Below are positions 55,126 through 59,472 of a stretch of DNA of 64,000 nucleotides, one piece after another (position 1 is the first letter of the stretch; every line of letters begins with the position of its first letter). The position numbers and the translations under genes were made by a program. This DNA is from an uncultured Pelagibacteraceae bacterium (GTDB taxonomy: Bacteria > Pseudomonadota > Alphaproteobacteria > Pelagibacterales > Pelagibacteraceae). The notes below the pieces were generated by a model. It saw only the letters and a program-made list of their open reading frames with translations. It was not told where the DNA came from and searched no databases. The stretch lies in assembly GCA_902601705.1 (NCBI GenBank), contig CACKNV010000004.1, positions 1-64,000 of the forward strand, given 5' to 3'.

Positions 55126-55333
55126 TTTAACAAAAAAAGTTAAATAACTTGCTTAAAAAAACATTGATATTGCTAACTTTTTTTAAATTTTATTAAAATT
55201 AAAAAAATTAATAAAAAAATTAAATTTTGAATCTATTTCACAAATTAATTTATGTTTGACATGAATCTTTTAATAATTAATGTTTAATTAACAAACGAAT
55301 CATTAAGATTTGTTTAACAACAAGGGAGAAAAG

Positions 55334-55402
55334 ATGGCTAAAAGAAGAAAAAAAGCTAAGAAAAAGAAAAAAGCTAAAAAGAGAAGAAGAAAAAGAAGAT
55401 AG
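55334..55402 (+). CDS. 22-aa ultra-basic peptide (not in ORF track)
   Basis: ATG..TAG = MAKRRKKAKKKKKAKKRRRKRR*; SD-like AAGGGAGAAAAG just upstream; strong terminator just downstream; in-frame stop at 55304. Confidence 0.65.
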   Translation: MAKRRKKAKKKKKAKKRRRKRR

Positions 55403-55416
55403 TTTTCTCTTTTATT

Positions 55417-55456
55417 AAACGCCCTTTTTAACTATTTTAAAAAGGGCGTTTTTTTT
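55417..55456. terminator. strong intrinsic terminator, potentially bidirectional
   Basis: Perfect 15-bp inverted repeat AAACGCCCTTTTTAA / TTAAAAAGGGCGTTT with 5-nt loop CTATT, T-run on + strand. Confidence 0.93.
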
Positions 55457-56120
55457 ATTCTGCACTTTCTGAAATATTAGTTCTTCCTAAAGCTTTATCC
55501 ATTTTTTTTTGAACATCGTCTGAACTTATTTTTAGGACTGCTTCGAATTCTGATTTCAGTCTTTCATAGGCCTTTTCAAATAACTGTCTCTCAGAATAGG
55601 ACTGATCTGCAATGATATCCGTATTTTTATTTAGGTCTTTTACCACTTCGGCTAATTCATAGATTTTACCAGAATTAATTTTTTGATCATATTCTTGAGC
55701 TCTTCTGCTCCACATAGTCCTTTTAATTTTAGGTTTTGTTTTTAAAATCGAGATACATTTATTAATTTGATTTATAGAAGCAATAGGTCTTAATTTTGAT
55801 TGTTGATTTATAGGAACAGTTAAAGTTAATTTTTCTTTTTCAACTAATATTTTATAAAACTGAATATCTATCTCACCAATTTTTGCTTTTTCAATAGCTG
55901 TAATTTTACCAACCCCATGTTTTGGGTAAACTACAAAATCTTTCAAATTATAAATTCGCTTTTCAGTAGGCTGTTTCTTTATTTTTTTTATTTCCGGTTT
56001 TTCATCAGTGCCAGGAATAGCACTCTTTTTTTCAGTTATTTTTGAAGGAAGTTTTACTTTTGAACGTAATTTTACTTTTTTTATTTTTTTTACTTTTTTC
56101 GACTTTTTCTTTTTTGGCAT
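55455..56120 (-). CDS. carD: CarD/CdnL family transcription regulator with Lys-rich N-terminal extension
   Basis: YNLKDFVVYPKHGVGKITAIEKAKIGEIDIQFYKILVEKEKLTLTVPINQ...MWSRRAQEYDQKINSG. Confidence 0.92.
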   Translation of the reverse strand: MPKKKKSKKVKKIKKVKLRSKVKLPSKITEKKSAIPGTDEKPEIKKIKKQPTEKRIYNLKDFVVYPKHGVGKITAIEKAKIGEIDIQFYKILVEKEKLTLTVPINQQSKLRPIASINQINKCISILKTKPKIKRTMWSRRAQEYDQKINSGKIYELAEVVKDLNKNTDIIADQSYSERQLFEKAYERLKSEFEAVLKISSDDVQKKMDKALGRTNISESAE

Positions 56121-56122
56121 AT

Positions 56123-56464
56123 TTATTTTCCAGGTTTTTCTGAAAAGTATTTATCATACTTATCTTTTATATTTCTATATTTTTCATGTTCTTCCATAGG
56201 CTCTTTTTTTTTTGTGATATTAGGCCATATTGCAGAAAACTTTTTATTAAGCAACAACCATTTCTCTATGTCTTTTACGCTTTCGTCTGTATCAGCTTTT
56301 ATTGCATCTAATGGACACTCGGGTTCACAAACTCCACAATCAATACATTCATCAGGATTGATTGCTAAAAAATTTTCTCCCTCATAAAAACAGTCTACAG
56401 GACAAACCTCTACACAGTCAGTTAGTTTACATTTTATACATTCATCTTTTACAATATAAGTCAT
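56123..56464 (-). CDS. fdxA: ferredoxin (FdxA type)
   Basis: [54 protein letters not shown]. Confidence 0.96.
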
Positions 56465-56850
56465 TTGTTATTCATTATTTGAAGTTTGATTTCTGCACTC
56501 TCTTTGTCAGGAAAATATATGAGCCCGCATATTCTGCGCATCAAATTAGACTCGTATTGATCAACAGTGTTATCTGAAATAATTACTTTCCAAAGGTGAG
56601 CAATAATATCTTTTTTAATTTCTAAAGATTTTTGTTTTATAATATTGGTGTAATTTAAAAGTTGATTTGAGTTTCTTTCTATTTCTTCAGCTTTTTTTAA
56701 TATTTCATTAGAATCATCAGTTTCTAAATATGATTTAATAAAATCTTTAACCAACTCTTTCTCATGACTTGAATAGATCTCGTCTATATTTGCGGCATGC
56801 ACAAGTAATGCAGAAATTCCGATTACACTCTCTTTATCTAATTTTTTCAT
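56461..56850 (-). CDS. TerB-like small helical protein
   Basis: [30 protein letters not shown]...[31 protein letters not shown]. Confidence 0.6.
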
Positions 56851-59316
56851 TTATTTAATATTTAAAGAGAGAAGCTTATTAAATGGATTTTCTTTTTTGT
56901 CAAATCGTATTATTTTCTCTCTTTTCTTTTTTTCGCCTTTAAAAATGTAAGTATCTAAAGCCTTATCCTTTTTATAATTCATATAAGTCATAAGTTTATA
57001 AAAATTTTCCTTAGAGCAACCTACTAGATTCATCATTTCGGCATTAATTTTAAATTTTTTATCTTTTGTATTTTCAATAATTTTAAGAAATAATTTTTCT
57101 AAAATATCTATTCTGACAAAAAATTCTCTAAATTTTTCAAAACCGCATAACAAAAGAAAATTTTTATTAAAAGTGTTTCCAATTAAAAAATTTAATCCTG
57201 ATTTGGGGATTATATTCTTATCGGATAAATTATTAAATATTTTCCATAAACCAATCCTAAACTCGACTGCTTTTGGTTTAAGCATCTTAGGTAAATAAAT
57301 ATGATATCTTCCAATTTTTATACCCATCCCCCATAATTTTTTTCTTTCCTCGCTAGGGATTAATTTGACAATCTTATTTACCTCACTTCTTTTGACCACT
57401 CCATTATTCTCATATAGCTGAAATAATAACCCTCTTAAGTATTGATTGGATATTTTATGTTTATTTAATTTGATTAAATCACCTAATACGACATTTATGT
57501 GATTTGATAACCATTTATTTAAAAATATAATTAATTTTGATTTAGACTCTGCGTTTAATGATTCATCAGAAATGATATCAATATCTGGACTTAAATAATC
57601 ATTTCCCTTTTTCAATCTTGCTATTGGATTATTTTTCCAAATAATTTTTCCAGAGTTATCAAGCTCAATTTCAGCTTTAGTTAAAATTTCATTAACTCTT
57701 TTAACCAATTCTTCTTCTACACCTTTTCTGGCTGCTTTTTTAATTGATTTAATGTCAGTATCTAGTGTTTTAGAGGTAACCTCGATTAAAAATTTTAGGC
57801 CTTTAAGTTCACCTACTAACTGTCCATCAATAAAAATTTTGTTTTCATTATTTATTTCAGTATTTAAAATAAGGTCTTGTTTAAGACTTCTTGATAAAAT
57901 GCTGATTTTTTTGTCAATAAAACTTTTTGTTAATTCATCATGAAGTTTATCCGATAGCTTATCTTCTATACTTTTAGTTAGTTGAACCCAATAATCTGAG
58001 TTTTCTACCCAATTTTTTTTGTTTGCAACGTAGGACCAAGTTCTAACATTTGAAAGTCTGTGAGATAATAAATCTACATTACCGTGATCTTTCTCTAAAC
58101 CTTTTAATTGTTCTTTCATAAATGAGCTTGGTATCCTCTTTTTTCGAGTAGATAAGAATTGAAATACTTTATCAATAATATTTATGTGTTGACCGTATGC
58201 TTTCTTTTCAAAATCCGGTATTTGACAACATTCCCATAACAACTCTAAATTTTGATGATAAATAATATTGTTTGCTCCTTTTTTTAAGAAAAATCTTAAA
58301 ACACTTTCATCAAGTGAGTCATTAGTTCTTAAAAGATTTTTTCTAGGTGGTCTTAGTTCTAATGTAGCAATCAAATTTTTAGGATTTTTAAAGTCTAATT
58401 TGGAATTTCTCCAATAAATTGATTTAGTCTCTGGTAATTGATGTTTTTCAATCTTTTCTATTTCATCCGAATTCAAAGTTTCACAATCTCCTGTAGTACC
58501 AAATCCACCATCATTTTTATATCTACCAGCACGACCTGCTATTTGAGACATTTCAATAAGATTAAGTCTTCTAGTTTTTTTTCCATCAAATTTTTTTAAA
58601 TTTGAAAAATAAATTTCATTAATATCCATATTCAAACCCATACCTATAGCATCAGTTGCTATTAAATAGTCTACATCTCCTGATTGATATAAGCCAACTT
58701 GTGAATTTCTAGTTTTTGGGCTTAATGATCCCATTATTACAGCGGCTCCACCTTTTTGTCTTCTAACAAGTTCTGCAATCGCATAAACTTCCTCAATAGA
58801 AAAAGCTATAATTGCAACCTTACGCTCTAGTCTAGATATCTTTTTAATACCCGAGTAACTTAATTTTGAGTATCTTTCTTTATTTTCGAAATCAACATTG
58901 TCAACTAATTCTTTGATAATGTTAGCCATAACTTGAGAGCCAAGAAACATAGTTAACTTCTTTCCACGCGACTCCAATAATCGCTCAGTGAAAATATGGC
59001 CTCTTTCTCTATCTGCACACATTTGTATTTCATCAATTGCTATAAAATCTACTATTTTATCTTTAGGCATAGACTCCACAGTACAAATAAAATAACTGGC
59101 TGTGCTTGGGATAATTTTTTCCTCCCCTGTTATCAAGGCAACTTTATCTACTCCAACTTTAATTACACATTTATCGTATACTTCTCTTGCAAGAAGCCTT
59201 AATGGTAAACCAAAAATACCAGTTTCAAATTCCAACATTTTTTCAATAGCCACATAAGTCTTTCCAGTATTTGTTGGTCCTAATAGTGCTATGATTTTTG
59301 AAGAATAAGCATTCAT
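56851..59316 (-). CDS. Suv3/MgpS-like DEAD/DEAH RNA helicase
   Basis: IIALLGPTNTGKTYVAIEKMLEFETGIFGLPLRLLAREVYD...FIAIDEIQMCADRERGHIFTERLL...IATDAIGMGLNMDINEIYF...QIAGRAGR. Confidence 0.92.
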   Translation of the reverse strand: MNAYSSKIIALLGPTNTGKTYVAIEKMLEFETGIFGLPLRLLAREVYDKCVIKVGVDKVALITGEEKIIPSTASYFICTVESMPKDKIVDFIAIDEIQMCADRERGHIFTERLLESRGKKLTMFLGSQVMANIIKELVDNVDFENKERYSKLSYSGIKKISRLERKVAIIAFSIEEVYAIAELVRRQKGGAAVIMGSLSPKTRNSQVGLYQSGDVDYLIATDAIGMGLNMDINEIYFSNLKKFDGKKTRRLNLIEMSQIAGRAGRYKNDGGFGTTGDCETLNSDEIEKIEKHQLPETKSIYWRNSKLDFKNPKNLIATLELRPPRKNLLRTNDSLDESVLRFFLKKGANNIIYHQNLELLWECCQIPDFEKKAYGQHINIIDKVFQFLSTRKKRIPSSFMKEQLKGLEKDHGNVDLLSHRLSNVRTWSYVANKKNWVENSDYWVQLTKSIEDKLSDKLHDELTKSFIDKKISILSRSLKQDLILNTEINNENKIFIDGQLVGELKGLKFLIEVTSKTLDTDIKSIKKAARKGVEEELVKRVNEILTKAEIELDNSGKIIWKNNPIARLKKGNDYLSPDIDIISDESLNAESKSKLIIFLNKWLSNHINVVLGDLIKLNKHKISNQYLRGLLFQLYENNGVVKRSEVNKIVKLIPSEERKKLWGMGIKIGRYHIYLPKMLKPKAVEFRIGLWKIFNNLSDKNIIPKSGLNFLIGNTFNKNFLLLCGFEKFREFFVRIDILEKLFLKIIENTKDKKFKINAEMMNLVGCSKENFYKLMTYMNYKKDKALDTYIFKGEKKKREKIIRFDKKENPFNKLLSLNIK

Positions 59317-59472
59317 ATTTGTGTTAGATAATTTTTTTTATACTATATGTAGATCAAAGTTGAGAACAAAATAGGATTAAAACATGACCGAATCGTTTTG
59401 TCAAATGTTCCGATTTTATAATTGATTTGACTTATAATACTTGGTCCCCGTATAGGTAATTTAAAGTTAAAA

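Follow-up and report, generated by a model that had tools for sequence, protein, structure and literature searches.

A minigene encoding a 22-residue polycation, MAKRRKKAKKKKKAKKRRRKRR, was identified beside carD in a 64-kb stretch of DNA (64,000 nucleotides, referred to here as the window) from a member of SAR11 (Pelagibacterales), and comparison of carD loci indicates that this peptide gene is real and conserved across the whole order. Lys and Arg account for 18 of the 22 residues on recount, rather than the 19 given in the original prediction, and the remainder consists of Met and three Ala. The product is proposed, at about an even chance, to be a polycation similar to a histone H1 tail or a protamine, which would neutralize and compact nucleic acid and whose transcription would be tied to the methyltransferase CcrM and the regulator GcrA.

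A conserved peptide gene beside carD

Within the window, the ORF at 55334 was the only ATG-initiated ORF of at least 15 amino acids with a Lys plus Arg content of at least 60%. When 150 windows were simulated with an equal dinucleotide composition (first-order Markov), none contained an ORF of at least 20 amino acids with such a content. A direct search of the window's own genome with the 22-residue peptide returned a single place, which was the 55334 locus. The features of the locus are listed in Table 1.

Table 1. Features of the minigene locus, in coordinates of the 64-kb window
Feature	Position	Strand	Remarks
-35 hexamer TTGACA	55256..55261	+	TTGAC[AT] upstream of CGAATC in 118/118 distinct regions
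Possible -10 TAATGT, weak	55278..55283	+	By inspection, 16-bp spacer; not reported by the consensus scan
5' hairpin AACGAATC-ATTAA-GATTTGTT	55294..55314	+	In all SAR11 groups; at about the expected transcript start
CGAATCA, GANTC site	55296..55302		Minus strand TGATTCG = YGAKTCG, extended GcrA/CcrM motif
Shine-Dalgarno GGGAG	55324..55328	+	5 nt 5' of ATG; kept in genus alignment, spacing 5-6 nt
Minigene, 22-aa polycation	55334..55402	+	ATG at 55334, TAG ends at 55402; ORF kept in synteny at all SAR11 loci that could be tested
Terminator	55417..55451	+	Perfect 15-bp stem then T-run; between two convergent genes; kept in genus
carD (CarD-like RNA polymerase-binding regulator)	55455..56120	-	Pfam CarD_C 6e-20, CarD_TRCF_RID 5e-12

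With the 22-mer itself as the query, hits came from only 5 of 61 genomes; carD synteny showed that this low count reflects poor sensitivity for such a low-complexity sequence. Since the peptide search misses most copies, loci were anchored on carD, the convergent neighbor of the minigene, which serves as a marker of synteny and is assigned no role in the proposed mechanism. In the window's genus (g1), all 30 loci of the first carD search had, immediately beyond carD, an ORF of 20-25 codons convergent with it. The minigene was also carried by 75 of 80 named genome contigs, a set that partly represents the same genomes as the first 30 loci, and the other five contigs end inside the ORF with a matching visible part. 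Together with one locus (L052) of the sister family in the same order (f2), the loci without a minigene total six, all of them contig ends, and among the SAR11 carD loci retrieved, all that could be tested have the convergent gene.

The encoded forms differ in length among the SAR11 groups. Outside g1, the window's family (f1) includes forms of 25-35 amino acids in g6, 36-38 in g5, 31 in g7, and 34-58 in g8, and the f2 forms, found in the same place beside carD, are Ala/Pro/Lys repeat proteins of 40-91 amino acids. A pattern built from the Shine-Dalgarno sequence and the first codons matched at least 181 of 298 SAR11 genomes, a minimum estimate given that the pattern captures only part of the diversity, and the reversed control had zero among the matches listed. 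No comparable ORF was seen beside carD at 56 loci of other Alphaproteobacteria. A search of other Alphaproteobacteria with a 58-residue form carries no information on this point, as the query matched no genome at all, including those of SAR11. Short Lys/Arg-rich ORFs next to carD, which the original prediction proposed to look for in relatives, were thus present at the carD-anchored loci, and no relative was found in which the ORF is disrupted and the terminator kept.

The coding status of the ORF is well supported by comparisons within g1, where 39 distinct ORFs contain no codons other than those for Met, Lys, Arg, Ala, and Thr. Their lengths fall into six classes, each a whole number of codons and each with the same context at the stop; the leader and the spacer between stop and terminator, by contrast, vary in all residue classes. 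Summed along nearest-neighbor trees, 23 synonymous and 17 non-synonymous changes were counted, a weak signal by itself because most replacements swap Lys and Arg. The complete minigene of the original prediction (GGGAG, ATG, stop, and a perfect 15-bp terminator) was borne out at the locus, and selection on it is strongly supported by the conservation of synteny, whole-codon lengths, promoter, ribosome site, stop, and terminator. The regular Ala spacing that had been offered as a sign of selection was not conserved, as both the number and the positions of Ala differ between species. The invariant GANTC promoter site and the 5' hairpin described below are additions to that prediction.

Two further observations concern the neighboring genes. 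The N-terminal tail of CarD is itself Lys-rich in the window (MPKKKKSKKVKKIKKVK...), adjoining the gene for a Lys-rich peptide, and this tail is far longer in other SAR11 genera (f2 loci L036-L051). Additionally, carD belongs to an apparent operon on the minus strand (55455-59316) with abutting genes for an 821-residue helicase-like protein, a 129-residue protein, and a 113-residue ferredoxin-like protein.

Promoter, GANTC site, and 5' hairpin

Of all parts of the locus, the promoter is the best conserved. TTGAC[AT] was found 38-42 bp upstream of CGAATC in 117 of 118 distinct regions from seven groups, the exception being one f2 region, for which a TTGAC[AT] closer to the site was taken. CGAATCA occurred in 118 of 119 distinct upstream regions and CGAATCG in the remaining one, such that YGAKTCG fits all 119. 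Across 29 diverse leaders that were aligned, the sole invariant columns were CGAATC and the TG of the ATG; these leaders were collected by CGAATC, yet no ORF with enough upstream sequence lacked it. By canonical sigma-70 spacing, CGAATCA would begin at about +5, which places YGAKTCG within 40 bp of a start whose distance is estimated from the position of the -35 hexamer.

In the passage of PMC7987155 that cites Haakonsen 2015, YGAKTCG is the extended motif of methylated promoters activated by GcrA. The window's genome encodes both components of such control. Specifically, a CcrM gene matched the solved Caulobacter enzyme at 8e-140, with a score of 573 against the NCBIfam Caulobacter CcrM model that lies below the model's own cut-off of 830, and a GcrA gene was found at 6.5e-40, above the cut-off. 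In Pelagibacter, the majority of GANTC sites carry methylation, for which a role in the cell cycle has been suggested (PMC9516812), and GANTC is depleted in the 64-kb window (98 observed versus 175 expected), in keeping with the presence of CcrM. YGAKTCG itself had five sites in 64 kb, approximately the number expected by chance, and it is therefore the conservation of the minigene site that counts and not its presence.

The arrangement resembles the GcrA/CcrM promoters of Alphaproteobacteria in that YGAKTCG lies near a sigma-70-type promoter in a genome with both regulator genes. In contrast to the GcrA/CcrM regulons, which are not the same in Caulobacter and Brevundimonas (PMC7987155), the minigene site is retained throughout an order, and its control by GcrA and CcrM is put forward here as likely from the motif and the genes. 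No SAR11 GcrA/CcrM target of this kind was found in the literature searched. Because the motif is a single site that overlaps a hairpin, its invariance might instead reflect a requirement of the RNA or of the initially transcribed sequence. Two other occurrences of such sites were observed in the window. A second YGAKTCG (CGATTCG) lies at 59389-59395, between divergent ORFs that start at 59316 (minus strand) and 59473 (plus strand), and is possibly a second GcrA/CcrM promoter. Also, three GAATC are spaced exactly 34 bp apart (55229, 55263, and 55297), of which only that at 55297 is invariant in relatives.

The CGAATC site forms the 5' arm of the hairpin, and the 3' arm and the register change by genus. 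The arms are AACGAATC/GATTTGTT in g1, CGAATC/GATTCG in g6, ATCACATAA/TTATGTGAT in g5, and TCACTTAAAA/TTTTAAGTGA in g8, where a change from A-T to G-C keeps the pair; in one g7 leader (L213), the simple stem is interrupted. A G-U pair in most g1 leaders is more easily reconciled with a hairpin in RNA than with a strict operator in DNA, both being possible. The leader and hairpin were present in a single copy, as a search of the window's genome returned no others. An Rfam search of the window identified only a tRNA, and no mention of carD was found in the SAR11 structured-RNA paper (PMC2704228), whose section on lesser motifs covers other loci. In some other groups, a CTCC/CCTC stretch of the leader can pair with the ribosome site (CTCC...GGAG), namely in L209 and L210 of g5, L214-L217 of g8, and f2, where the stem possibly provides translational control. 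For the window's genus such control was rejected, as the CTCC...GGAG stem is absent from g1 leaders.

The peptide and its possible roles

What the different forms share is charge density, a start of M-A/P-K (MEE or MED in f2), and a terminal cluster of Arg and Lys, while length and non-basic residues vary freely. The longer relatives are composed of Lys/Ala/Pro/Thr repeats of the histone H1 tail kind, with repeats of the KKAAPKKK type in f2 and g8. Of the two resemblances raised in the original prediction, that to H1 tails is favored, because the longer relatives are extended by Ala/Pro/Thr/Lys repeats of the H1-tail/AlgP type; that to eL41/Thx-type proteins is disfavored, given a range of 20-91 amino acids and no fixed non-basic residues. 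Neither the short nor the long forms had a meaningful match in Pfam or NCBIfam, where profiles have difficulty with short queries of low complexity, and a PDB search gave no match. A literature search returned nothing on the peptide in SAR11.

In Chlamydia Hc2 and Bordetella BpH1, in-frame changes of repeats alter the length (PMC2848022). The SAR11 peptide is similar in being Lys-rich and Ala/Pro/Thr-spaced, with charge kept while length is free (PMC2848022). Such repeats with in-frame length change, as in Hc1 and Hc2, were found in g6, g8, and f2, and the window's own 22-residue form has no clear repeat. The differences are that Hc2 and BpH1 have about 165-237 residues and include other regions, whereas the SAR11 peptide has 20-91, occurs in a free-living host, and is fixed beside carD. 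The C-terminal KPAA tails of AlgP/PhaF in Pseudomonas are disordered, H1-like, and rich in Lys, Pro, and Ala, as are the f2 and g8 forms; in AlgP, a 195-residue tail follows a 124-residue N-terminal domain (PMC9239181), whereas in SAR11 the tail stands alone. As no curated Pfam or NCBIfam profile, including those for Hc1/Hc2, and no PDB entry matched, the peptide is not filed as a member of the Hc2, BpH1, or AlgP families; by analogy, it probably works like an Hc2/BpH1/AlgP tail outside of them.

Under the proposed mechanism, GcrA would activate a sigma-70-type promoter at its invariant GANTC once methylated by CcrM, and methylation and GcrA together would probably couple transcription of the minigene to the replication state. 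A dedicated monocistronic transcript, with a short hairpin at its 5' end and the terminator at its 3' end, would then be translated into a stand-alone disordered polycation resembling the C-terminal tail of histone H1 or a protamine, which in the window's genus has been cut down to about 22 residues. The polycation would bind the nucleic-acid backbone by charge, most likely on chromosomal DNA and possibly on RNA, thereby neutralizing and compacting it. Three matches to the HU/IHF family are also encoded in the window's genome, and the peptide would therefore be an additional packing protein and not the only one. The most specific form of this proposal, a stand-alone chromosomal polycation, of about 20-25 residues in the window's genus, whose gene GcrA would switch on via methylation by CcrM and whose supply would thereby keep step with replication of the chromosome, is put forward tentatively, as a possibility with distinctly less than an even chance.

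Charge alone cannot separate DNA from RNA, rRNA, or polyphosphate as the partner, and other roles were weighed. The mini ribosomal proteins bTHX, bS22, and eL41 are very basic and 20-40 amino acids in length. The main rival is a lineage-specific protein of this kind or another rRNA-binding peptide threading into rRNA, for which small size, extreme basicity, a strong-looking ribosome site, and order-wide presence would all speak. It is considered unlikely, as bTHX, bS22, and eL41 keep a fixed sequence and length and the SAR11 peptide varies in both, growing by repeats instead of staying near-constant, matching none of their profiles or structures, and lying behind a GcrA-type motif and not in a ribosomal-protein operon. 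An H1-tail-like composition would equally suit a counter-ion for another polyanion, either polyphosphate granules, to which AlgP localizes (PMC9239181), or cellular RNA generally, for which Hc2 has a greater affinity than Hc1 (PMC2848022). With only carD as a neighbor, and neither a polyphosphate gene nor an RNA-binding partner linked to the locus, this role appears quite improbable.

Two further alternatives were considered. The leader is conserved better than the ORF, and the predicted transcript is short with hairpins at both ends, features that would also be expected if a small RNA were the functional product and the ORF secondary. Such an RNA would not account for lengths in whole codons only, the restriction of g1 to five kinds of codons, the conserved ribosome site and start, or a coding part that reaches a 91-residue repeat protein elsewhere, and it is thus very unlikely. 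Runs of Lys and Arg codons with a terminator immediately after them recall the leader peptide of an attenuator sensing the supply of either amino acid. Downstream of the terminator there is no gene in the same direction, carD being convergent, and an alternative antiterminator was not noticed, which leaves this explanation scarcely credible.

Implications for SAR11

In the ocean, SAR11 ranks with the most abundant groups of bacteria, and its regulators are few. The minigene, found in every testable locus, unmatched in the family libraries used, and difficult to detect when proteomics relies on trypsin, could have a core role in chromosome packing in these bacteria. Its invariant methylation motif provides a concrete candidate for a GcrA/CcrM target in SAR11, and control by GcrA and CcrM, if true, would link packaging to replication. 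The gene would then represent an order-wide direct target of GcrA in a streamlined genome, and its product a bacterial analogue of a protamine or H1 tail.
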